Notes under the pieces: generated by a model
The model's input: the letters and a program-made list of their open reading frames with translations, nothing else
Database searches by the model: none
Told to the model about the DNA's origin: nothing
Program-made: the position numbers and the translations under genes
DNA from: Nitrospirota bacterium
GTDB taxonomy: Bacteria; Nitrospirota; Thermodesulfovibrionia; Thermodesulfovibrionales; SM23-35
Assembly: GCA_013388455.1 (NCBI GenBank)
Contig: JACAFF010000020.1
Span: forward strand, 1-33,906
Direction: 5' to 3'
Length of the DNA stretch: 33,906 nucleotides
Shown here: positions 2,159-28,369 of the stretch, in pieces
How positions within the stretch are numbered: position 1 is the stretch's first letter
Layout of the letters: every line of letters starts with the position of its first letter

Positions 2159-2397
2159 TTCAATCAAATACTATACAGGGCTTTTTAAACCCAGAGACTT
2201 ATGTGGCCTCGGAGTATTATAAAAGATCATATAATCAGCAAGTCTCTGGTTAAACAATATAAATTTATATCCAGATTATTGTCAATGAATTCCTCTTGAA
2301 AGGTTCTATCTATAAAATCCCCGTATCTTACTGAATATTGGAATATGTTCGTGAATAATGCCCCATTATCCCTTAATGTCGTATATGTGTTTTAACC
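2159..2397 (-). pseudogene. transposase C-terminal fragment, copy 2 (degenerate)
   Basis: About 240 bp are clearly homologous to 168-429 in the same orientation. Shared blocks include the DNA for RDNG-LFTNIFQYS, IDRTFQEEFID and RPHKSLG, but this copy has small insertions and deletions that break the frame. Its start coincides with the stop codon of the sigma-54 regulator (TAA at 2394-2392), so the regulator's 3' end abuts the element. It fills the gap between the regulator and the porin gene. The remaining bases, 2089-2158, are AT-rich leader for the porin. Confidence 0.7.
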
Positions 2398-3912
2398 TTT
2401 TCCTGTTTCCTCTAAGCCGTATTTTTTTATCTTATAACCTATTTGACGGGGGGTAAGGCCGATCATACGCGCTGCTTTTGCTTGAACCCAACCGCATTTT
2501 TCGAGTGCCTCAAGGATACTGTTCTTCTCAATATCTTCTATCCCTGCCTTGAGAGATTCCCTCGGTAAAATCTTTTCACGAGAAGGAAGTTTAAGGTTGA
2601 TTGGCAAATAGGATGGTTTGATAATGTTGCCATCGGACATGACAACAAGCCTTTCAATGGTATTTTCGAGTTCTCTGACATTTCCAGGCCAGTCATACTC
2701 AATCAATACTCTGAGGGCTTCAGGTGATATGGAGATGTTCTTGCTATTCTCCCTGTTGTATCGATTCAGGAAGAATTCTACCAGAAGACTGATGTCCTCT
2801 TTTCTTTCTTTAAGAGAAGGCATGGATATTGGCACAACATTAAGCCTGTAAAATAGATCTTCCCTGAATTTGTTTTTAGAAACGAGTTCTTCAAGATTTC
2901 TACTTGTTGCAGCAATTAGTCTAACATCGACCTTGATAGTTTTCTCTCCACCAACACGCTCAAATTCTCTCTCCTGAAGAACGCGCAGTATCTTGGGTTG
3001 AAGATTCAGCGGCAGATCACCAATCTCATCAAGTAAAATAGTACCAGTATGGGCAAGTTCAAATTTACCTTTTCTTACAGAAATTGCACCGGTGAAAGCG
3101 CCTTTTTCATGACCAAAAAGTTCGGATTCAAGAAGACCTTCGGGGATAGAGGCACAATTAAATTTTATAAAAGGGCAATTCGCCCGAGGGCTCATATAAT
3201 GAATAGCTTTTGCAATTAGCTCTTTACCAGTGCCGCTTTCACCATATAGAATTACAGTTGCTTTTGAATCTGCCACACGGTGAACAGATGCGAAAATTTC
3301 CTGCATCTTGTCTGAATTTCCTATAATATTAGGAAGACTGTATTTGCCTTTGAGTTCGAGCTTAAGGTTTTCTCTCTCCCGCTCAGAATCACGATAATGT
3401 TTCCATAATATAATATACTGTCCAATTATTGACGCTAAAATCTCAAGCACTCTGATATCTTCATAAATATTTACATTTTTATCCTTAAAGATTCTGTCAA
3501 CACTTAATACACCTATTGATTCTCCTTTAAATTTTATTGGTACACAGAGAAAGGAGATGCCATCTTTACCGATACGCGAGCCTGTCCTATTGAGAAACAT
3601 TGGCTCATTTCCTACATTTGGTATAACCATAGGAGAACCCTTTTCGAGAACCCTCCCAACAACTCCTTCTCCAATTTTGTATTTACCACGTTCAATCTGC
3701 TCTTTTGTCAGCCCATGTGCTGCAACGATTCTCAGTTCTTTTGAGTTCTGGTCGAGCAAGAAGACAGACCCTCTTTCCATCTCAAGAAAATCACCAAGAA
3801 CGCGCATTGTGCGCGAGAGGTTTTTTTCAAGCTCAAAAGAAGAATTAAGAACCTTGCTTACTTCAAGAAAGGCAGAAAGGATTCTATTCTCTATTGCAAG
3901 TGACTGGATCAT
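2392..3912 (-). CDS. NifA-like sigma-54-dependent transcriptional activator (GAF, AAA+, Fis-type HTH)
   Basis: I place the start at the ATG at 3912, giving 506 residues. This ATG overlaps the TGA of the upstream glutamate synthase gene (ATGA), and the longer reading upstream of it is not domain-like. Domains in order are a GAF sensor (about 20-170), then an AAA+ core with Walker A GESGTGKE (224-231), the sigma-54-contacting GAFTGA loop (271-276) and Walker B LLDEIGDL (293-300). A C-terminal Fis-type helix-turn-helix follows (about 465-500), reading [20 protein letters not shown] and closely resembling NifA. It would act as an enhancer-binding ATPase that opens sigma-54 promoters. The operon position suggests control of nitrogen assimilation. 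The GAF ligand and the target promoters are unknown, and I saw no convincing -24/-12 promoter in this window. Confidence 0.88.
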
Positions 3913-6428
3913 ATATTTTCTACCATCTCCCAGACTCCACATGGACAGATGCCAGCACAGAAACCACAACCAATACATTTTTCATCATCAACAATATACT
4001 CATAAGAACCATCTTCATGTTCAACCCTGCTTATTGCTCCCCAGTAGCATGCATACTCGCACATATGGCAATCACGGCATGTTCCACAGGACATGCATTT
4101 ATCTGCATCAATCTTACAGAGTTCAGATTCGAGGGCCCAGACCTCCACCCCCTCCCTTGTCTTTCCCCCTCGATGGGGAAGGGTGGGTGGATGAGACTGT
4201 ATTCTGTGTTCTGCTTCATAATAGACCGTTTTTATGCGTTCATAAGGAATAACCTGTTTAGTCTCTGGCCATCTTGGAGCATGCATGAGTTGATAATGTA
4301 TCGATTCTGCTGCAATCCTGCCCTGGCCTATAGCATGTGTTACGAGTCCAAGTCGTGTAGCATCTCCGATGGCAAATACTTTAACATCTGATGTCTGTCC
4401 AATTTCATTGACAGCAATCCATCCTTTTTCTGTATGTATTGAAGGAGGAAGAAAATCAAGAATAGGAACATCACCGACAGACATTATTACAAGATCTGCA
4501 TCAAGTGATGAGCCATCTTTGAAATACAATTTCTTCTCATTATTATCATATCTTTCAGTAAATTTGGGCCAGATTATCTGAGTCCCTTTTGCTACTGCTG
4601 TCTCCATCTCTTTCCCGAATGCTGCGGGTTTCTGGATATCAACAGCGATTACAGATGTCGCACCACAATTATATGCCTGTGAGGCAACATCCATTCCAAC
4701 ATTACCTGCCCCTATGATAACGATCTTTTTACCATTAAGATCAGGCAATGAACCGATATTTGCATTCCTGAGAAAATCGTATGCTGTAACAACATGCTCG
4801 GACCCCGGAAAAGGTATGAGCCTCGGTTTATGAGCACCACATGCAACAACAACAATCTCATGATTTTTATAAATCTCTTCAAATTTTTCTTGATTGATTT
4901 TCTCATTCAAATAAATATTAACACCAATCTCCTTGAACCTCGATAACTCTTTCTGAAGCACCTCTTGTGGAAGGCGTTCTCTTGGAATGCATAATTCGAT
5001 TTTGCCCCCGAGTTTGTCTGTAGATTCATATATGTTAACAGTATGTCCTTTAAGAGCAAGCTGCCATGCTGCACTCAGACCTGATGGCCCTCCACCGATG
5101 ACTGCTATTGTATGTCCAGTCGGTTCAGCCTTTTTCGGGGCTGGTAAATCAATAGCAAGCCTGCCGAGTCTATCAATTCCTAATGGTTTATCAATCTGTC
5201 CCCTTGTGCAACTCTGCATACAGAGATTTGGACATATCTGGCCGCATACTGTTGCTGGCAAAGGACTATATTGTAAAACCAATTCCAGCGCCTCATGAAG
5301 TTTTCCCTGCCTGATCAGAGCAGCCCTTTTATGTGAAGGAATATGTGTTGGACAATTGTAAGCACATGGAGGTAAATACTTCTCATTTGCCCATACAGGT
5401 TTATTCCTTCTATCTTTTCCGGTAGTAATATATGGTAATAAAGTCATATCATGCTCTATATAAGGAGCAAATATACCACCCTGCCCAACTTCTTTCTCCC
5501 AGTAATTTTTTCTGAAATCTGTAATAGACATCTTGAACCATCTTCGCGATCTTTTTTCCTGAGGCGTATATGCAATTAATTTTTTCCATTCATCCTGTGA
5601 ATTTGTAAGCTCCTCATAATATGAAATCCTATCAATGGATTCGAGGAATGGTTTAATATTAGTTTTTAACCATTCCCAGTCCTGTGGTGTAAGATCGAGA
5701 AGTCTGACATCCCTTTCACTGTATTCCTGTATAGGACCCCTGAAATATATTGTTCCTCCAACCATTCCAACGCATGGACGATACCCCAGTATATTCGATG
5801 GGTTTCTTGAATCTACACCACAAACGACTGCGATGCCTCCTGCCTTGAATTCTGCAAATGAATCCCCAACATTTCTGAAATACCATGACTGCGGTGGATC
5901 AAATCTTGGATTGTGCTTGGTCATTGTGTCACACCTTGCACCTCCGCTGCCCTGAACGTATAGGATACCCTGAGCTGCTGCATTGAATGCACCATTTGTT
6001 ACATCACCTAAAACCGTTATTTTAGCTCCGCAGTTGATCCATCCTACATCGTCAGAGACGCTTCCTTTTACAATTATTTCTGTCCCAAACATGCCCATAC
6101 TCCCAAGCCTTTGGCCTACAGGTCCTTCGACAATTATTTTTATTATTTCATTTCTTGGCCATATCCTCCCGCCTATTCCATGCTGCCCATCAGCTATAAT
6201 ATGCAATTCTCTCGCACCATCACGAACTGCCTGCTGTATTTGTTCTTCGAGAATACGGGACGAAACCCTGTGGCCGTTAATACGACCATATATGGTAATG
6301 GCTTTAGTTTGTGCTACAGAGGGAAGGGAGGTTTTACCCTTCCTGAGGACATACCCCCCCTTACTAAGGGGGGGATTAGGGGGAGTATTGCTTTTCGCTT
6401 TTAACTTTTTACTATTTTTAGCACGCAT
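3909..6428 (-). CDS. glutamate synthase fusion: GXGXG domain + GltD-like FAD/NAD(P) oxidoreductase + C-terminal ferredoxin
   Basis: The 839-residue protein carries three modules. Residues about 43-240 form the GXGXG beta-helix normally at the C-terminus of GltB (for example [20 protein letters not shown]). Residues about 350-715 form a GltD-like chain: N-terminal Cys cluster (C355, C359, C395, C399, C403, C407), FAD motif GGGPSG (445-450), second dinucleotide motif GAGNVG (573-578) and FAD closing motif FAIGDA (685-690). Residues about 771-830 are a Cys-rich ferredoxin with two 4Fe-4S clusters. It would pass NAD(P)H or ferredoxin electrons to the FMN subunit encoded just upstream. The start overlaps that gene by 11 bp. 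Residues 15-25 and about 745-763 are translated palindromic repeats and look like insertions. Confidence 0.88.
4140..4196. repeat. palindromic repeat inserted in frame within the glutamate synthase fusion gene
   Basis: The DNA is a C-rich arm (CCACCCCCTCCC), a TTCCCC-ctcgat-GGGGAA core and a G-rich arm (GGGTGGGTGG), an imperfect hairpin. On the coding strand it reads [20 protein letters not shown]. That has the low-complexity, Pro/Gly/Arg-rich look of a translated dispersed repeat and lies in the linker between the GltD-like module and the C-terminal ferredoxin. The frame is kept on both sides. Confidence 0.6.
6321..6390. repeat. two palindromic repeats in the 5' coding end of the glutamate synthase fusion gene
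   Basis: Two inverted repeats lie side by side. One is GGAAGGG...CCCTTCC at about 6321-6343. The other is a seven-C arm with a seven-G arm at about 6354-6376, followed by ATTAGGGGGAG. The second translates as [11 protein letters not shown] (residues 15-25 of the fusion), a peptide typical of translated dispersed palindromes. The conserved GXGXG domain begins only after these repeats, so the N-terminal 40 residues are probably repeat-derived. Confidence 0.6.
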
Positions 6429-8079
6429 AGCTTATCTCCAGTCTTTCTGCCATAGCCTTGTCGTCTACACTCAAACCATCAGACATGCCTATAGGAAGTT
6501 CTGTGCTTCTTCCCATGGGCGCAAAGATTTTTTTCAGTTCAACGTTAGCTGCTTTGAATACTTCAACCACCCTTTCAGCAACCTTGTCAGAATCAAGCCT
6601 TCTGTAAAGTTTAGGGTCCTGTGTTGTTATCCCTCTCGGGCATTTACCTGTATTGCAAAGGTTACAACGGTTGTATTCATCACCGAAACAGTTCGCTGTA
6701 GCTTGCATTATATATTTTCCTACTGAAACTATTGATGCCCCAAGCATAATTAAAGCTGCTGCATTTGCTGCAAGATTTCCTTTCTTTGCAATACCACCAG
6801 CAGCGATTAAAGGCAATTCATTCTGTTTTCCCTGTTTCACGAGGTCGAGATAACATTCCCTGATATTAGAGGCTATTGGATGTCCCATCTTATCCATCGA
6901 AACGTTATAAGCAGCACCAGTCCCTCCATCTTCACCATCGATCGATAGTGCAGAAGCATATGGATTTCTTGCAAGGTTATTAAGAACTGCACGAGCTGTC
7001 TTTGTCCCTGATATTTTCGGGTAAACAGGGACACGGAAACCCCATGCCATAGACATAGACTGGATCATTTTTGCAACCGCCTCTTCAATCGAATACTTTG
7101 TCTGATGAGTTGGTGGTGATGCAAGATCAACAAATTGAGGTACACCACGAATACTTGCAATTAGTTTGAGAACCTTCTGTGCCATTAATAATCCACCATC
7201 TCCTGGCTTTGCACCTTGGCCATATTTAATTTCGATAGCTGCTGGATCCTCAACCATTTCAGGAATTGTATGGATAATCTCATCCCATCCGAAATATCCT
7301 GAAGCAATCTGCAGAATGAAATATTTAAGAAATCTGGATTTTAGAAGTCTCGGTGGTACCCCACCTTCACCGGTTGCCATAACAACAGGGAGACCTTCCA
7401 CTTCGTTTAGATACGCAACCCCCATAGCAAGACCTTCCCACATAGGAGGCGAAAGTGCACCAACTGACATGCTACCAATCATAATTGGAAAAATTTCTCT
7501 TACAGGTGGAATAAATTTACCCTTATCTTTATCAACCGAAAGTTTTCCGTTTACTGATATAAGTGGTAGTTCCTCAGGAGGTAATATTCTACCTAATAAT
7601 GTCCTGACACGAAACTCATGTCTTCCAGCATCAAGGGCTGGATCTGTAAGCATTGAGATCCTTGTGAACTTGAGCCTGTCAAGTGTCGAAATTGATGGGT
7701 CATTTCTACGTCCGCCTCTTTTATATCCTTCACCGCCTTTATTTTTATAAAGCAAGAATTTATTTTGAGGATTATATTCAGGTTCAATTGCATCATTTGG
7801 GCATACAAGAGTGCATGCACCGCATCCTGTGCAGTACCTGTCAATATCTGTTACCTGTTCAATTACATGAACAATCCTCCTAACCGCTAATGGTGTTGGT
7901 ATATGTCCCTCAGATGTAACAGTCCTCTGGAGCTTTACAGATGGTTCAATTGCTTTCACAGGGCATACTGCAGTGCATCTTCCACAACGTGTGCATCTGT
8001 CATCCCTCCACCGAATTATATAAGGGAGTTCTTTTAAAGAAAGCTGATGGTTATAATCTAATTTTGTAGCTGGTTCCAT
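6418..8079 (-). CDS. glutamate synthase FMN subunit with N-terminal 2x[4Fe-4S] ferredoxin (archaeal type)
   Basis: This 553-residue protein is the catalytic synthase domain. Residues 29-43 (CTRCGRCTAVCP) and 83-97 (CTGCGACTLVCP) form a two-cluster ferredoxin. The (beta/alpha)8 FMN domain follows from about 190. It carries the family signature SIDGEDGGTGAA and a later Cys group (CNLCNTGKCP) suited to the synthase 3Fe-4S cluster. The reaction is ammonia plus 2-oxoglutarate plus reductant giving glutamate. The amidotransferase and GXGXG parts of bacterial GltB are encoded by the flanking genes. The start overlaps the upstream amidotransferase gene by 22 bp and the 3' end overlaps the fusion gene by 11 bp, so the trio is translationally packed. 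Confidence 0.92.
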   Translation of the reverse strand: MEPATKLDYNHQLSLKELPYIIRWRDDRCTRCGRCTAVCPVKAIEPSVKLQRTVTSEGHIPTPLAVRRIVHVIEQVTDIDRYCTGCGACTLVCPNDAIEPEYNPQNKFLLYKNKGGEGYKRGGRRNDPSISTLDRLKFTRISMLTDPALDAGRHEFRVRTLLGRILPPEELPLISVNGKLSVDKDKGKFIPPVREIFPIMIGSMSVGALSPPMWEGLAMGVAYLNEVEGLPVVMATGEGGVPPRLLKSRFLKYFILQIASGYFGWDEIIHTIPEMVEDPAAIEIKYGQGAKPGDGGLLMAQKVLKLIASIRGVPQFVDLASPPTHQTKYSIEEAVAKMIQSMSMAWGFRVPVYPKISGTKTARAVLNNLARNPYASALSIDGEDGGTGAAYNVSMDKMGHPIASNIRECYLDLVKQGKQNELPLIAAGGIAKKGNLAANAAALIMLGASIVSVGKYIMQATANCFGDEYNRCNLCNTGKCPRGITTQDPKLYRRLDSDKVAERVVEVFKAANVELKKIFAPMGRSTELPIGMSDGLSVDDKAMAERLEISYAC

Positions 8080-9167
8080 ACTCTTACCTCCTCTGCCTGA
8101 GGACCTACAATAACCATATCGTATTTCATAGGAAAAATATCCTTCGATTTATCTCTCTTCGGGATGGCACTATCAAGCCCGCATTCCTCAGACATTAATG
8201 CATATTTGCCTTTTATACCGCCTACAACTCCAGGGCGAAGTTTCTTTGCATCGTGTACCATGAAACATGTTCCGTCAGGAGTAAAGCCAATAACAACATT
8301 AGGTCCATCAATGCAAAGTGGTCTTAATGATTGTTTAATCAGTCTAAGAACATCGCTGTCAGTTCTTGTCTCTATTTCGTTTTCTTTCAATGGTGTTATA
8401 ATATCTTTATAGTAGGTCAAGGGCAACCTGAGTTGTCTGACAGTATAGTGGAGAATATGAGTAAATACTTCACTATCACTGTTATAGCCGATATAGCCAG
8501 GAAACCCTCTGCTCATTAAAAATTCTCGTATAGGAACAAAAGCAGTATTCTCACCGTTTGTCATAGAGCAATATCCCTGAATGAAGAAAGGATGGCATGC
8601 GTATAGGTATATTGCATAATTTGTATTCTGCCTGCCCTGAGCAAAAATAATCTTTGCTTTTAGATTTTCTCTGTCAAGACCAAAAAACTCAGCAAGCTGA
8701 AGCGGATCTCCAACTTCTTTTAATGTAATAACGTCAGGATAAAAAGAGAACGCAAATATCGATTGATTAGATTCTCCCATCTTTCTGAGTGTTAGTCTTA
8801 CATTAACCAGAAGATCTTCTTTTTCGTGTAAGTGATTATGTTTGATTGAACTTGGATAATCATAAACTCTGGCAAAATAATGATCATGAGAAATAATTCC
8901 TTTTACATGCCTTATCTTAGGAGTCCATACATGAATTAATTTGAAACCTGATTTGTCCATGTAATCATCAAGGATCTTGGCCCCCTCCTTAGAACAAATT
9001 CCTGAAAGAATTGGATAACCCTTTAAATCTTTGAATTCTCCGCCCAGGTCTTTGAGCGTAATACCAAGCCCTGAGCCATCGTGTCCTTCTTTCATTGTTT
9101 CGAGTGCAAGAATATTTTCTATTGGTGAAAAATATTCTTTTGATGTAATAGCTGCTAATCTGCACAT
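8058..9167 (-). CDS. glutamine amidotransferase class II subunit of glutamate synthase
   Basis: I choose the ATG at 9167 (369 residues), not the longer frame. It gives MCRLAAI, putting the catalytic nucleophile Cys at position 2 as Ntn-type (class II) amidotransferases require after Met removal, and AGGAG lies 8 bases upstream. The expected role is to hydrolyse glutamine and supply ammonia to the FMN synthase subunit next door. The G-H-D-G-S-G-L-G stretch near residue 30 fits the GATase glutamine loop. It is first gene of the four-gene minus-strand operon. A separate amidotransferase polypeptide is usual in archaea and some anaerobic bacteria. Confidence 0.88.
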   Translation of the reverse strand: MCRLAAITSKEYFSPIENILALETMKEGHDGSGLGITLKDLGGEFKDLKGYPILSGICSKEGAKILDDYMDKSGFKLIHVWTPKIRHVKGIISHDHYFARVYDYPSSIKHNHLHEKEDLLVNVRLTLRKMGESNQSIFAFSFYPDVITLKEVGDPLQLAEFFGLDRENLKAKIIFAQGRQNTNYAIYLYACHPFFIQGYCSMTNGENTAFVPIREFLMSRGFPGYIGYNSDSEVFTHILHYTVRQLRLPLTYYKDIITPLKENEIETRTDSDVLRLIKQSLRPLCIDGPNVVIGFTPDGTCFMVHDAKKLRPGVVGGIKGKYALMSEECGLDSAIPKRDKSKDIFPMKYDMVIVGPQAEEVRVWNQLQN

Positions 9168-9203
9168 ATGATTCACTCCTGAAATTAATCGGCAAACGGT
9201 TAC

Positions 9204-9241
9204 CGTATGTATATAAAAACACATACGTACAATTTTGTCAA
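9204..9241 (-). promoter_or_regulatory. putative sigma-70 promoter with overlapping inverted repeat, glutamate synthase operon
   Basis: Reading the minus strand, TTGACA (9241-9236) is followed after 17 bp by TTTTAT (9218-9213), a fair -10. The spacer and -10 are overlapped by an inverted repeat, CGTATGT-N10-ACATACG (9227-9204), placed where a repressor would block polymerase. The start codon lies about 37 bp downstream. Both assignments are by eye only. Confidence 0.45.
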
Positions 9242-13917: not shown

Positions 13918-14520
13918 TTGGATCCGCTTGGTAAAAAGGAACTTTTAAATTTCTACAACAGGCATCTTAAAGATTTTGGTGATTTACCTCAAGCAGTCAG
14001 GTGGACTCCTGAAGGGCAGAAAAAGAGATATGATAAAATTTTTTCTATAGCAGGAGATCTTTCAGGAAAGCATATACTTGATTTTGGTTGTGGAAAGGGA
14101 GATTTTTTTGGATTTTTAAAAGAAAAAAGTATTGCTGTAAATTATTGTGGCATAGATATTAATAAAAATCTTATAACGTTAGCAAAAAAGAAGTTTCCTG
14201 ATGCTGAGTTTATTGCTATGGATATAGAAGAAGAGGAATTTTACAGGAAGTTCGATATCATTTTCGCTTGTGGCGTATTTAACCTCAGAATTGCAGGAAT
14301 CGAAACTACAATGAAAAATATTTTAATAAAACTATTCAATCTTTGCAACGAAGCCATACATATAAATTTTCTTAGTTATTATGTACCTCGCCGAAATGTT
14401 GAAATGTTTTATGTGAAACCCGAAGAGATTCTCTCTTTTGCGATCACCGAACTTTCAAGGATTGTTCAACTCAGGCATAGTAAAGAGGACATCTATCTGT
14501 CGATATACAAAGAAAGCTGA
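13918..14520 (+). CDS. class I SAM-dependent methyltransferase, substrate unknown
   Basis: The 200-residue Rossmann methyltransferase has motif I ILDFGCGKGDFFG (about 53-65), an acidic residue after beta-2 (CGIDINKN) and motif AEFIAMDIEEEEF. The GVFNLR region takes the place of motif IV. Its start is a TTG, 20 bases after the ferritin-like gene, with no strong ribosome site, so coupling with that gene is likely. Family members methylate many small molecules, and nothing in the context fixes the acceptor. It ends convergently with the cytochrome b gene. Confidence 0.75.
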   Translation: MDPLGKKELLNFYNRHLKDFGDLPQAVRWTPEGQKKRYDKIFSIAGDLSGKHILDFGCGKGDFFGFLKEKSIAVNYCGIDINKNLITLAKKKFPDAEFIAMDIEEEEFYRKFDIIFACGVFNLRIAGIETTMKNILIKLFNLCNEAIHINFLSYYVPRRNVEMFYVKPEEILSFAITELSRIVQLRHSKEDIYLSIYKES

Positions 14521-14539: not shown

Positions 14540-15223
14540 TTAGCTGCTGTGACCATGTTCTTCAGCATGAGCATGTTCTTCAGCATGTCCGTGCCCATGT
14601 TCCTCGTGTTCTTCTTCATATCCTGTAAACATTGCGATGATATGTGCCATTGGAGTATGTCCAAGGGTAGCGAGATAGAAATGAACTATTATGAATGCAC
14701 TGAAGAATATAAACAGAAGGACATGGATCATGTCAGCGATCTGAATTCCTCCTATCAGGTTTACAGCAGGAGAAAAGAATTTTGGATCCCAGAGGAAAAG
14801 ACCTGTGATGATCTGAACAGGAATTAACAGGGCCATTATCATTAAATATGAAACCTGCTGCATGGGATTGAATTTATTGTCAGGTGTTGAATGATGTGGA
14901 TTCTGATCGCCAACCATTATGCCGAAGCCGTAAAACTTTGCCTGCCTTATGGCCTTTTTAGCAAACTCTATTGGACGGTGAAGAGGTGGTATATAGATTT
15001 TAATTTTTAATGTAAGGAGGTAATAGATAAGCCAGATGAAGTAATTTGCCAGAAGAATAAAGCCAAGCCAGCTATGGATTTTTACCGCTGTTTCGAACGA
15101 GAACAGATTAAGAACATTGCCAAATCTAATCTGGGCTCCTGTGATAATCAGAATAATGAAACCCAGTGCATTAATCCAATGCCAGATTCTTATTGGTAAT
15201 GGATGTAAATATATTTTTTTCAT
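14540..15223 (-). CDS. cytochrome b (cytochrome b561/NiFe-hydrogenase b type) membrane subunit with His-rich tail
   Basis: The 227-residue protein has four predicted membrane helices. Histidines suited to two b haems are in IRIWHW (helix 1), KIHSWLGF (helix 2), DMIHVLLF and IVHFYLATLGH (helix 4), the pattern of hydrogenase/formate-dehydrogenase cytochrome b subunits. It would pass electrons between quinol and the multihaem cytochrome encoded immediately upstream; the genes share one base (TAATG). The cytoplasmic C-terminus is a Glu/His repeat (EEHGHGHAEEHAHAEEHGH, eight His). It is encoded partly by a direct DNA repeat at about 14554-14587 and may bind metal. No catalytic subunit is adjacent. 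Confidence 0.85.
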   Translation of the reverse strand: MKKIYLHPLPIRIWHWINALGFIILIITGAQIRFGNVLNLFSFETAVKIHSWLGFILLANYFIWLIYYLLTLKIKIYIPPLHRPIEFAKKAIRQAKFYGFGIMVGDQNPHHSTPDNKFNPMQQVSYLMIMALLIPVQIITGLFLWDPKFFSPAVNLIGGIQIADMIHVLLFIFFSAFIIVHFYLATLGHTPMAHIIAMFTGYEEEHEEHGHGHAEEHAHAEEHGHSS

Positions 15224-17268
15224 TATTTTTTACCTCCTTTTCCCATTCTTCTTAATGAGCGTAGGGGTGAAGTTATGATTCTAAAAGTAATATGTCCTAT
15301 AGGAACTGCTATTCCGCCTATGAGCGCAATGATAAACAGGATGTCAAATAGCTTTATATTCGTGCTACCCAGTGCATAGAATTTACTGACAGGTAATATA
15401 GTATATATTGAATTGAGGACTTCTTTTTTCGTCTGCAAAAGGGTGGTTTTCCCATCGGATCTATTAATGGCAATCATAACATTACCAAAGAATTCGGCTT
15501 CAGGGTGATGACACTTTTCGCATTCTCTTACGGCCTCTTTTTTTGCGGATATTTGGTGAGCTTCTGTAGCTTTGCTCACATCCATCTTGCCATGGAAGAT
15601 TGACAGCGTCCCTTTTTTGTATAGTTGTGTAAATATATTCCATAGTTCATTACTGTCAATGCTTCCGTCTTTATTCGTATCGAGTTTTGCCATCAAACCT
15701 TCAGAGTCTGTCTCAAGCAGTTTAGCGAGTTCTTCCTCTGGCAGAGGTTTCCCGGATTTTCTATCAAAAAGACTGAGATAGATCAACCTCTGAGCATCTT
15801 TAGAATGGCAGGCGGCACAGGATACAACATCAAAATGTGCTCCTGCAAATGATGAAAGAGTAATAGGTGGATTGGATAGCCACTTACTATGAATTTTTTC
15901 TATATCCTTGTGACACTTGAGACATCCATCCTTTATTTTAGTGGTCATTTTTGTTGATTCAACATCATGTGCATTATGGCAGCCTGAGCATGTCGGGGTG
16001 CCAGATTTTCCCTGCATCCTTAGCTCTTCATGAATGCTGTTCTTATAAGAGTCATACATATCACTATGGCATTTATTACAAAGTGTGAGCCCCAATGTTT
16101 TATCAATGCTTGCTTTCCCGATTGCATGGCTTCCGTGACATCCTACACAAGAGGGTGCTTTTTGATTACCACTTTTGAGCATTGAATAGTGGATACTTGT
16201 TTCATATTTCTTATAAGCATCTTCATGGCATTTATTGCAGAGTTCTGAAGATAACAGAGAATATTCTGCAAGATTCTCATATGTTTTACTTGGATGCTGA
16301 GTCTTCGAAAAACCTGTATGACAATCTCCACATTTAAGACCTGAATGAACTGAACCTTTTACGGATGCTTCATCCACATATAGAATAAGCGTTTCTCCAT
16401 TTTTCATCCTCATGCTTATTTTGTTCTTGTGGCATGAAAGACAATATGCATTCTCGGGTGCTGTTGCTTTTGCAGCCTTCATGCTCTTTATGGTATGTGA
16501 ACCATGGCATGAAATACAGTTGTCTTTTGCAATTAGAGCATAGTGTGCAGCATTTTTTCTTAATTGATCATCTGTATGACATATGGTGCATGCCTTTGCA
16601 GCTGCTGTAATATATTCTTTCCTGCTTTTGAATGTTCTAAAAGGATGCTTATTTTTTGAAAAATCCATATGACAGGCAGTGCAGTCGAAATTGCCATGAA
16701 CAGAATTCTTGAAAGTGTCTCTATTGATAAAAAGGCTTAATAATTCAGCACTGCTCAATGTCATACTAAAATCAAATTTATGACAGGTTAAACAATATTG
16801 CGTATCACTTATTTTCTTTTTCCAATCTGCCATTTTTAAAATGTAATGTGCGCCATGGCATTCAGAACAGAAGATGTTCTTTACCTTCGTTGTCAGGTAA
16901 TTATGCATTGGTAACTTTTCTTTTGGAATTTCTCCATGGCATAAAATACAGACCTCTGAAGCTCTTGCTGAATATTCTTTCTTGCTATTTATCTTTTTTT
17001 CCTGAGGATGATTTTCCATAGATATATCCATATGACACCCTGCACATCCGAGTGTGCTGTGTGCAGAATTTGCAAATTCGTTACCATTGATATATAGAGA
17101 GAGGATTTCTTTATTGGCAAGCTGTTTTGTCAGGCTATTATCCGAATGGCATCCAAGACACATCTGAGCTTCATCTGAGAGCTTCCCTTTTGCAGAGACT
17201 ATATATAATGGAAAAACAGTGAAGGATATAAAAAGCAATAAAATAATAATTTTCTTTCCTTTATCCAT
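15223..17268 (-). CDS. 17-haem c-type cytochrome with EF-hand loop and C-terminal membrane anchor
   Basis: The 681-residue protein starts with a signal peptide (about 1-26) and contains 17 CxxCH motifs, at residues 37, 75, 107, 134, 159, 196, 227, 251, 276, 313, 344, 374, 397, 427, 449, 484 and 583. The first twelve form three tandem four-haem units with nearly equal spacing (38/32/27, 37/31/24, 37/31/30). Residues 530-541 (DTNKDGSIDSNE) match a 12-residue EF-hand calcium loop. A hydrophobic helix at about 640-666 followed by Arg/Lys should anchor the C-terminus in the inner membrane. With the overlapping cytochrome b gene it should form a quinol-linked periplasmic electron conduit. The acceptor is unknown. 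A ribosome site (AGGGGG) precedes the ATG. Confidence 0.9.
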   Translation of the reverse strand: MDKGKKIIILLLFISFTVFPLYIVSAKGKLSDEAQMCLGCHSDNSLTKQLANKEILSLYINGNEFANSAHSTLGCAGCHMDISMENHPQEKKINSKKEYSARASEVCILCHGEIPKEKLPMHNYLTTKVKNIFCSECHGAHYILKMADWKKKISDTQYCLTCHKFDFSMTLSSAELLSLFINRDTFKNSVHGNFDCTACHMDFSKNKHPFRTFKSRKEYITAAAKACTICHTDDQLRKNAAHYALIAKDNCISCHGSHTIKSMKAAKATAPENAYCLSCHKNKISMRMKNGETLILYVDEASVKGSVHSGLKCGDCHTGFSKTQHPSKTYENLAEYSLLSSELCNKCHEDAYKKYETSIHYSMLKSGNQKAPSCVGCHGSHAIGKASIDKTLGLTLCNKCHSDMYDSYKNSIHEELRMQGKSGTPTCSGCHNAHDVESTKMTTKIKDGCLKCHKDIEKIHSKWLSNPPITLSSFAGAHFDVVSCAACHSKDAQRLIYLSLFDRKSGKPLPEEELAKLLETDSEGLMAKLDTNKDGSIDSNELWNIFTQLYKKGTLSIFHGKMDVSKATEAHQISAKKEAVRECEKCHHPEAEFFGNVMIAINRSDGKTTLLQTKKEVLNSIYTILPVSKFYALGSTNIKLFDILFIIALIGGIAVPIGHITFRIITSPLRSLRRMGKGGKK

Positions 17269-26282: not shown

Positions 26283-26476
26283 ATCTTTTTATCTTTCTTA
26301 ATTTTCTCGGGTTTGTATTATTTAGTAAATTATAGCAAAATTATTTATTTTCCAGATAGTCTTATTGAATGTTTGTAAGCATCACTTTTCCTGATGAAGC
26401 AATTTCCCCAGGCCACTATAAATCCTGGAATTGGTTAGGTATTATTAGGTATGCATTAAGCTGTTATGATAGAATA

Positions 26477-28369
26477 ATGAAATCGAAAATGAATATAGAA
26501 TTATCAACAGGTCAAACAATAGAAGTAATAAGTGGAGAGAGTATTTTTAATGCACTGAAAAGAAATGGAATCCATCTTGTAGCCTCATGCGGAGGGAAGG
26601 GCGTTTGCAGTAAATGCCGTGTCAAGGTTGTTGAAGGACAATATAGGGCTTCATCAAAAGGAAAATTAGGAGAGGTTGATATCGAATCAGGTATTGTTCT
26701 TGCGTGTCAGACATATCCTGAGGAGAATCTTTCAATTGAAATTCTAAAGGAATCATTACTTGTAGTTGGTGACAGGATAGCACTCTCAAAATCAGGTGAT
26801 CTTCTCCAACTATTAAAGTCCTTTTTCGTAAAAATTTCACCAATTGTTAGGTGGATTGAGTTAGAACTTCCGCATCCTACAATTAATGACAACATAAGTG
26901 ATCTTGAAAGACTGAAGCGGGCATTATCGCAAAAGGGGCTGACAGGCATGAGATTTTCCCATCACATTGTCTCACAACTTGCAAAGATATTGAGAGCAGC
27001 AAGCTGGAAGATTATAGTTGGATATACTGTTGCCAACGATATCATTTATATATTGCCAGCACAGGGACATAAAAATAGGTACGGACTTGCTATTGATATC
27101 GGAACTACTACTCTGGTTGTATATCTTGTGAATCTTGAAACAGGACAACTTATAGATGTGGGTTCGACATATAATTCACAGATAAGGTATGGAGACGATG
27201 TTATTACACGTATAATATATGCCATTGAACAAAAAGGGCTTGAAGAATTAAGAGAGACTGTTGTTTCGGATATCAATGATATTATAAATTTGTTAACTGA
27301 AAAACATCGTATAGAACCCGCTGATATCGAATCAGCAGTTATAGCAGGTAATACAACGATGTCTCACATTTTCTGGGGACTTGATCCTTTATCCATAAGA
27401 GAGGAACCTTACATCCCTACCGTAAATTTCTTCCCCAGATGGAGAGGTGAGTTCTCCATGCTTAATATTAATCCTATGGCTCCTGTACTTACGCTGCCAT
27501 GTATTGCAAGTTATGTTGGAGGAGACATTGTCTCAGGCGTTCTTGCATCCAGAATGCATCGGAATAGTGAAATATCGCTCTTTATGGATATCGGCACTAA
27601 TGGAGAAATTGCTATCGGGAATAATGAATGGCTGGTGACAGCAGCATGTTCAGCAGGGCCATGTTTTGAAGGAAGTGGTATAAGACATGGCATGAGGGCA
27701 ACAGCCGGAGCGATAGAGTCACTAACAATTAACCCAGAGACATTCGAGCCAATTGTTAGTGTCAACGGACATGGAGAACCTCTGGGTATATGTGGTTCAG
27801 GAATGATCGACGCTGTCTCAGAGATGTTCCTGAAAGGGATTATCAATCAAAAAGGGAAGTTTGTCGCTGATCTAAAGAAAGACAGGATAAGAAAAGGCTC
27901 TGATGGTATTGAATTTGTAATATACACCAAAGATGGAAAAGATATTGTTCTCACAGAGGTGGATATTGAAAATATCCTCAGAGCAAAGGCTGCCATGTAT
28001 GCAGGAGTTTCCCTGCTTCTGAATGAGGTCGGACTTAAGATTGATGCAATCAAGAAGATATATATAGCAGGAGGTTTTGGTAATTATCTTGATATTAATA
28101 AAGCTATCATCATGGGAATGTTACCTGATCTCCCCATGGAAAGATTCTCGTTTATCGGAAATGCCTGTATCACAGGCGCCTATCTATGCCTGCTTTCCGA
28201 TGAACTGAGAAAAGAGGCTGGCATAATAGCATCAAAGATGACTTACATAGAGCTATCAGTTTCGAGGAGATTTATGGATGAATATCTTTCAGCATTATTC
28301 CTGCCCCACACCGATATATCTCTGTTTCCTACAGTAAGGCAATTGATATTAAAAAATGAAAGAAGTTGA
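26477..28369 (+). CDS. ASKHA-domain 2Fe-2S protein, corrinoid-activation (RACo/DUF4445) type
   Basis: I start the protein at the ATG at 26477 (630 residues), because a longer frame from 26369 adds 36 residues unlike the family. Residues 1-95 are a plant-type 2Fe-2S ferredoxin with C38, C44, C47 and C77 (SCGGKGVCSKC, LACQTY). A linker domain follows, then an actin-like ATPase core: GLAIDIGTTTLVVYLVNL, SAVIAGNTTM, LFMDIGTNGEI and KKIYIAGGFGNYLD. Relatives use ATP to drive reduction of inactive Co(II) corrinoid proteins in methyl transfer and the Wood-Ljungdahl pathway. No corrinoid protein or methyltransferase gene is adjacent, so the partner is unknown. It is divergent from lysC. Confidence 0.85.
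   Translation: MKSKMNIELSTGQTIEVISGESIFNALKRNGIHLVASCGGKGVCSKCRVKVVEGQYRASSKGKLGEVDIESGIVLACQTYPEENLSIEILKESLLVVGDRIALSKSGDLLQLLKSFFVKISPIVRWIELELPHPTINDNISDLERLKRALSQKGLTGMRFSHHIVSQLAKILRAASWKIIVGYTVANDIIYILPAQGHKNRYGLAIDIGTTTLVVYLVNLETGQLIDVGSTYNSQIRYGDDVITRIIYAIEQKGLEELRETVVSDINDIINLLTEKHRIEPADIESAVIAGNTTMSHIFWGLDPLSIREEPYIPTVNFFPRWRGEFSMLNINPMAPVLTLPCIASYVGGDIVSGVLASRMHRNSEISLFMDIGTNGEIAIGNNEWLVTAACSAGPCFEGSGIRHGMRATAGAIESLTINPETFEPIVSVNGHGEPLGICGSGMIDAVSEMFLKGIINQKGKFVADLKKDRIRKGSDGIEFVIYTKDGKDIVLTEVDIENILRAKAAMYAGVSLLLNEVGLKIDAIKKIYIAGGFGNYLDINKAIIMGMLPDLPMERFSFIGNACITGAYLCLLSDELRKEAGIIASKMTYIELSVSRRFMDEYLSALFLPHTDISLFPTVRQLILKNERS

Follow-up and report, generated by a model that had tools for sequence, protein, structure and literature searches.

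The stretch of DNA analyzed here (the window) comprises positions 1 to 33,906 of contig JACAFF010000020.1 from a Nitrospirota bacterium, at its full length of 33,906 nucleotides. Two overlapping genes on its minus strand encode a 17-haem c-type cytochrome and a b-type cytochrome. The c-type protein consists, in order, of a probable N-terminal signal peptide, a periplasmic haem array and a C-terminal membrane anchor. The features of the pair are listed below, with residues numbered along the c-type protein.

A 17-haem cytochrome built from four-haem blocks

15223..17268, minus strand: 17-haem c-type cytochrome, 681 residues, 17 CxxCH motifs, with Pfam cytochrome c3, c7 and paired-CXXCH matches
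17191..17268, minus strand: probable signal peptide, residues 1-26, assigned by eye (KKIIILLLFISFTVFPLYIVSA); helix at 4-26 in the structure model
16795..17160, minus strand: four-haem block 1, residues 37-158, with 41% and 36% identity to blocks 2 and 3, respectively
16444..16794, minus strand: four-haem block 2, residues 159-275
16081..16443, minus strand: four-haem block 3, residues 276-396
15925..16080, minus strand: haems 13-14, residues 397-448, compared by eye (CNKCH...CSGCHNAH with CNKCH...CVGCHGSH of block 3)
15784..15924, minus strand: haems 15-16, residues 449-495, within the core common to seven-haem relatives, as aligned with these and with the solved protein 28pb_A
15646..15681, minus strand: EF-hand loop, residues 530-541, DTNKDGSIDSNE
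15508..15522, minus strand: motif of haem 17, residues 583-587
15280..15357, minus strand: C-terminal transmembrane anchor, residues 638-663; the tail after it is positively charged
15233..15238, minus strand: ribosome-binding site AGGAGG of the b-type cytochrome gene, located within the codons for KGGKK, the conserved tail of the c-type cytochrome
14540..15223, minus strand: b-type cytochrome, 227 residues, PF01292 (E 2e-27)

A first-pass annotation of this DNA had described 17 haems with a spacing that recurs almost exactly three times (38/32/27, 37/31/24 and 37/31/30), and had taken this to show that the protein grew when a four-haem block was duplicated. Both statements were borne out. The 681-residue open reading frame (ORF) contains exactly 17 CxxCH motifs and no CX3-15CH variant, and the full series of spacings is 38/32/27/25, 37/31/24/25 and 37/31/30/23, followed by 30/22/35/99. 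Cutting at each fourth motif gave blocks of 122, 117 and 121 residues, which share 47/116 (1 versus 2), 43/118 (1 versus 3) and 40/115 (2 versus 3) identical positions. Compared with 500 shuffles for each pair in which the haem motifs were held fixed, the respective z scores were 10.6, 6.6 and 10.2, indicating that the three blocks are true repeats; the relatives with 13, 17, 21 and 25 haems described below strengthen the case for block duplication. Haems 13-14 resemble one more copy of a block's second half (motifs C and D), so that by eye the array reads as 17 = 3 × 4 + 2 + 3. The assignment of the anchor was based on a model helix at 638-674, where the predicted local distance difference test score (pLDDT) is low, on a hydrophobic segment in the relatives and on the conserved sequence FYALGS...GGIAVPIGH.

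The start codon of the b-type cytochrome gene overlaps the stop codon of the 17-haem gene (TAATG). As the AGGAGG of the b gene lies within the KGGKK codons, the conservation of KGGKK in the c-type cytochrome may reflect translation coupling. Histidines 15, 50, 167 and 181 of the b-type protein were invariant in all 66 partner proteins compared and are the predicted ligands of two b haems. No other PF01292 match was found in the host genome (2.1 Mb assembly). The C-terminus of the b-type protein (window 14540-14620, EEEHEEHGHGHAEEHAHAEEHGHSS) is rich in histidine and glutamate and, in the window's family, extends further than in the other relatives compared; it is possibly a metal-binding tail.

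A constant membrane core shared with seven-haem relatives

To find homologues, a profile (A3, 20 rows) of the last five haems, the EF-hand and the anchor was used. It matched 86 of the 176 genomes of the host's order (E ≤ 1e-10), 58 of them at E ≤ 1e-50 and the rest only over the first ~60-70 positions (counted by hand), as well as 47 of 395 genomes in the phylum of a Thermodesulfobacterium relative (E ≤ 1e-12). From these and related searches, 70 loci were examined (the window, L021-L040 and L179-L227, of which L025 and L197 represent one contig). In 66 of the 70, the c-type gene is accompanied on its own strand by a cytochrome b gene that overlaps it or is at most 113 bases away. The four others are three loci that end at a contig edge (L035, L195 and L225) and L224, where a natural fusion (positions 1210-2934) joins a seven-haem EF-hand cytochrome to its cytochrome b. 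In one genome, G147 (the same as G181 via L025), small contigs (L196 and L197/L025) bear two copies of the kind usual in the window's family, possibly a case of mixed binning. Apparent stops inside the Thermodesulfovibrio rows probably come from reading past the real stop and not from recoding, because the ORFs are uninterrupted and end earlier.

Thirteen 17-haem members were aligned to search for distal haem ligands. Seventeen histidines outside the motifs are conserved, 16 of them in 13/13 sequences and H87 in 11/13; H659, which lies in the membrane helix (12/13), was left out of this count. With one distal histidine for each of the 17 haems, no haem needs an open site, which fits a pure electron carrier.

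The core of five haems, EF-hand and anchor is homologous to seven-haem, cytochrome b-linked proteins of Desulfobacterota, EF-hand and anchor included. It also matches the solved protein 28pb_A ('Cytochrome c', 278 residues) with a phmmer E of 4.5e-14 and a profile E of 3e-21, the EF loop included. With L217, a relative that has seven haems, an EF-hand, a C-terminal anchor and a neighbouring cytochrome b, 28pb_A aligns at E 3e-133. In the alignments, 28pb_A has seven CxxCH motifs, corresponds to the window core plus haems 1-2 and carries an EF-hand-like loop (DTNNDNYISLAE) at the equivalent site, whereas haems 3-12 and the membrane anchor are absent from it; it spans the soluble part of an L217-type protein.

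In CbcBA (Cbc5) of Geobacter, CbcA is described as a heptahaem cytochrome and CbcB as a b-type cytochrome of PF01292, the complex being a menaquinol oxidoreductase (PMC7726332, PMC10470525). CbcBA is also named in print as a two-subunit unit and is reported to be required near -210 mV (PMC9129911). The window pair resembles CbcBA in the C-terminal membrane anchor of its c-type cytochrome and in the adjacent PF01292 b-type cytochrome with ligands for two haems. CbcL of Geobacter (PMC9129911) is likewise a quinone oxidoreductase of the inner membrane and combines a multihaem part in the periplasm with a b part that holds two haems; unlike the window pair, it is one fused protein with nine c haems and six transmembrane helices. 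In the first-pass annotation, no named family had been recognised for the combination of features. This stands for the long version, since no Pfam or NCBIfam model covers it and the multihaem equivalogs score far under their cut-offs, but not for the core with its b partner, which has the architecture of CbcBA and, in 28pb_A, an EF-hand at the same position. The kind of oxidoreductase is already known, and what is new here is the length of the array (13, 17, 21 or 25 haems); no description of the form with extra four-haem blocks was found in the open-access literature searched, as far as the excerpts of it extend.

The best solved match of the block profile was 6r2q_A (E 7e-13), an entry titled Structure of the Mtr complex, followed by 28pb_A and NrfB (E 3e-8 for NrfB). 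The four-haem block sequence is thus like that of the MtrA/DmsE decahaem cytochromes and NrfB. The protein as a whole differs from the MtrA/DmsE type; it scored 71.9 bits with TIGR03508, where 192.2 are required, has no adjoining porin partner gene and is anchored in the membrane at one end. The hexadecahaem HmcA is a large periplasmic multihaem cytochrome from sulfate reducers, and its model NF045713 gave 37.2 bits against a required 400. Dodecahaem cytochromes of the GSU1996 type also arose by tandem duplication of a haem domain; their units are of the three-haem c7 type and they are not known to be linked to a b cytochrome. Two further groups came up beside this family. L045, L049, L052 and others share a recurrent 19-haem architecture with near-constant spacings, found in many phyla and often beside an 11- or 13-haem gene. 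L044, L047, L048, L050, L067, L069, L079 and others, from Acidobacteria, Deltaproteobacteria and other groups, are nine-haem proteins that start with a spacing of ~38/31/30/23 and have another C-terminal part.

The EF-hand loop annotated at residues 530-541 was confirmed. It meets the 12-residue pattern, with acidic or amide ligands at positions 1, 3 and 5 and an acid at position 12; among 20 aligned members D530 is invariant and N532, D534, G535 and E541 are kept in at least 90%. Structure prediction, proposed as a check, placed helices at 522-529 and 539-551 on either side of the loop in the whole-protein model, giving a helix-loop-helix. Pfam EF-hand_5 matched at E 7e-4 with 19.4 bits, below its gathering cut-off of 25.9, and a family profile of the region matched calmodulin EF-hands in the Protein Data Bank at E ~1e-5 to 1e-3. 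The loop had been located between the last haems and the anchor; it does precede the anchor, but it lies between haem 16 (484) and haem 17 (583) rather than after the last haem, and haem 17 is followed by the transmembrane helix (~638-663).

The history of the loop was followed on a tree of the core and the cytochrome b (48 rows, 47 of them different; the blocks were left out), with loops counted by a ligand-only pattern, as another pattern had missed some of them (e.g. L021 and L030). The loop is kept in 31 of the 48 rows and absent from 17, with a single change on the tree. The 17 rows without it form one clade, which has retained 13 haems and the cytochrome b gene, and most of them are also eight residues shorter before haem 16 (window numbering). 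By pattern the loop is present in 8 of 10 seven-haem relatives, indicating that it is old.

Calcium-dependent structure or gating had been suggested for the EF-hand. Structure is plausible; gating is not supported and was rejected as the leading idea once the single loss was found. Conservation of the loop in 31/48 rows and 8/10 seven-haem relatives and its position between haems 16 and 17 would suit a calcium-operated gate on electron flow, but one clade lost it in one step while keeping its haems and its partner, which argues for a structural role, and the EF-hand is single, with no second one to form a pair. A gate is accordingly very unlikely. The simplest reading, and the most likely one, is a structural calcium site, and bound calcium would brace the long segment from haem 16 to haem 17, near the membrane.

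Changes in haem number

Members of the family carry 13, 17, 21 or 25 haems (4n + 5). On the tree, at least seven changes of haem number are required, or six without L036 and five without both L036 and the long-branch L039. The stretch missing from 13-haem relatives extends from mid block 1 to mid block 2. In those close to the window, block 1 has a first half that is 49-66% identical to block 1 of the 17-haem proteins and 35-44% to block 2. For its second half, block 2 is the closest match, by a clear margin in L026, L196, L031 and L037 (9-13 points) and only marginally (1-5 points) in L027, L028, L029, L033 and L198. Recombination between blocks 1 and 2 that removed the intervening sequence in frame would leave such a hybrid block. 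In more distant 13-haem members (L179 to L193, six rows tested), no hybrid signal was visible.

The 25-haem proteins include L228, which lies inside a 1.63 Mb contig, L199 and L201. Their three N-terminal blocks are 49-62% identical to one another versus 31-43% for other pairs, indicating recent growth at the membrane-distal end. Outer blocks were also found on a separate gene. In the order of G281 (41 genomes searched, 12 matching), such a gene lies directly upstream of a 13-haem gene in 5 of the 12; it carries 12 haems in G209, G246 and G587 (in G587 the downstream gene is interrupted), eight in G361 and at least seven before the contig end in G408. In the split pairs L230 and L231, all four proteins start with a signal-peptide-like stretch. 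The blocks can therefore be produced as separate units. Block number would change by unequal recombination between homologous blocks.

That these differences are assembly or ORF-calling artefacts has next to no likelihood. The sources are mostly metagenome-assembled genomes, and L199 and L201 appeared shorter on partial stretches, as an artefact would have it. Nevertheless, 13-haem forms recur across many genera and families, the hybrid blocks are coherent, none of the polypeptides on the tree comes from a frame that runs open to the sequence edge, and one 25-haem form sits within a contig of megabase size.

A second way of growing is suggested by the spacings of other 13-haem proteins, from Desulfobacterota (L211, L212 and L215, also L213, L219 and L222), in which a whole six- or seven-haem unit is repeated. 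L211, L212 and L215 have two EF-hands by pattern.

Proposed function, direction of flow and meaning of the length series

We consider it likely, on sequence grounds, that the window pair is a two-gene, CbcBA-like menaquinone:multihaem-cytochrome c oxidoreductase with an N-terminal wire of blocks. The b subunit, with its two b haems, would exchange electrons with menaquinone in the inner membrane, and the c subunit would be anchored beside it by the single C-terminal helix. Haems 13-17 and the EF-hand would form the constant part, which exchanges electrons with haem b. The MtrA-like four-haem blocks at the N-terminus, each haem with its own distal histidine, would form a low-spin wire into the periplasm, from which electrons would go on to conduits of the outer membrane or to small cytochromes in the periplasm. 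The 17-haem chain probably conducts electrons from the inner membrane into the space beyond it.

Several points weigh against this. The window protein has 17 haems and tandem N-terminal blocks where CbcA has seven haems, and the pair lacks cbcCDE neighbours. Its likeness to Geobacter CbcA and CbcB was drawn from published descriptions, from the seven-haem relatives and from 28pb_A. As the haem number differs and the comparison with Geobacter was by description, the pair is called CbcBA-like and not CbcBA. The extended shape is a prediction, as the AlphaFold models of the whole protein and of two blocks (mean pLDDT 76 and 88) include no haem and gave weak fold matches, with best VIA-align Z scores of 6.8 and 2.9, respectively. 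Finally, the outer-membrane porin of the host was found in only 12 of the 176 genomes of the order, so the complex is independent of that conduit.

Neither model gave a Foldseek match at E ≤ 0.001, and 28pb was absent among the fold-search matches of both. Weak matches to MtrA were obtained (Z 5.2, root-mean-square deviation (rmsd) 5.1 and 189 aligned residues for the whole model; Z 2.4, rmsd 4.5 and 116 aligned for the two-block model), and the other weak matches include a Shewanella tetrahaem cytochrome, hydrazine dehydrogenase and hydroxylamine oxidoreductase, too mixed a set to assign a fold. The last two, at Z 4.3-6.8 with the whole model, could be taken to suggest a multihaem enzyme (a nitrite, hydroxylamine or similar reductase or oxidase) instead of a wire. 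We regard this as highly improbable, as all motifs are CxxCH, the conserved distal histidines equal the haems in number, no substrate site is obvious, and the gain and loss of whole blocks among the relatives would hardly be tolerated by an active site.

The host encodes two clusters in which a large non-haem protein is flanked by multihaem cytochromes. The large proteins of both have no Pfam match, and the clusters are probable outer-membrane porin-cytochrome conduits. No strong NapC/NirT relative was found in the host; among five matches the best (E 3e-4) was the 17-haem gene itself. By counts entered by hand from the search rows, 10 of the 12 genomes with the porin also belong to the set of 58 that have the core (Fisher p 3e-4); within the window's family the co-occurrence is 10/17 versus 0/3 (p 0.21), indicating that the association is mostly shared ancestry.

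The same complex could work mainly in reverse, with electrons from hydrogen, formate or an outside donor passing through periplasmic cytochromes and the wire to menaquinone for sulfate reduction, as in Qrc. The host has dsrA, and a reverse role has been proposed for CbcBA of Seep-SRB2 (PMC10553843). Relatives from Thermodesulfovibrio and Thermodesulfobacterium have a tetrahaem gene downstream of that for cytochrome b, and the copy in L032 matches NCBIfam TmcA at E 5e-18, below the cut-off. The core also occurs in 16 genomes of f10, to which Thermodesulfovibrio-like sequences appear to belong and which accounts for none of the 12 porin genomes. Opposed to this are the two probable porin-cytochrome clusters of the host, which fit outward flow, and the lack of a tetrahaem gene beside the window pair. 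Reverse flow is a serious possibility that we rate a little below an even chance.

A further proposal concerns the array of the CbcBA-like complex, namely that it is a length-tuned wire across much of the periplasm, connected at one end to the quinone pool via cytochrome b and extending at the other towards the outer membrane. Its block number (13-25 haems, of which 8 or 12 may be carried by a detachable second protein) would be set by the geometry of the envelope, and it would partly replace diffusible carriers. The ten haems of MtrA span roughly 80 angstroms, and if the proposal were true, 25 haems in line would, by that measure, come close to the width of the periplasm. The tetrahaem gene after the b gene in relatives suggests exchange with soluble carriers and speaks against their complete replacement by the wire. 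We hold length tuning to be doubtful.

Other genes were recorded in the window and the host. The gene beyond that for the b-type cytochrome (13918-14520) lies on the opposite strand and matches methyltransferases. Split glutamate-synthase-like genes with added ferredoxin domains occupy 3909-9224; within this stretch, a companion of 388 residues (8058-9224) matches nothing in Pfam or NCBIfam at the thresholds applied, and a NifA-class regulator adjoins the genes (2392-3978). An AcsV-like corrinoid activation protein is encoded at 26369-28369 (650 bits against a cut-off of 800). On another host contig (C3, L132:9240-12492), 16- and 26-haem genes are neighbours, the larger consisting of paired CXXCH repeats.

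The 17-haem cytochrome is a real feature that is mostly explained by its relatives, and it is notable for the modular series of lengths to which it belongs. The passage of electrons across the periplasm, from the quinone pool to the outer membrane, is usually ascribed to small shuttles. In the present case, one family of quinone oxidoreductases provides natural 7-, 13-, 17-, 21- and 25-haem versions on a homologous membrane core, plus split ones, the long and split versions being found in Nitrospirota and Thermodesulfobacteria relatives. An EF-hand can now also be assigned to this family, and it is visible in the solved relative 28pb_A. The series shows how evolution lengthens and shortens haem wires and permits a direct test of wire length against rate, reach and the need for shuttles. 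With such lengthening and shortening by whole blocks, a single biological wire may already exist in nature at several lengths.

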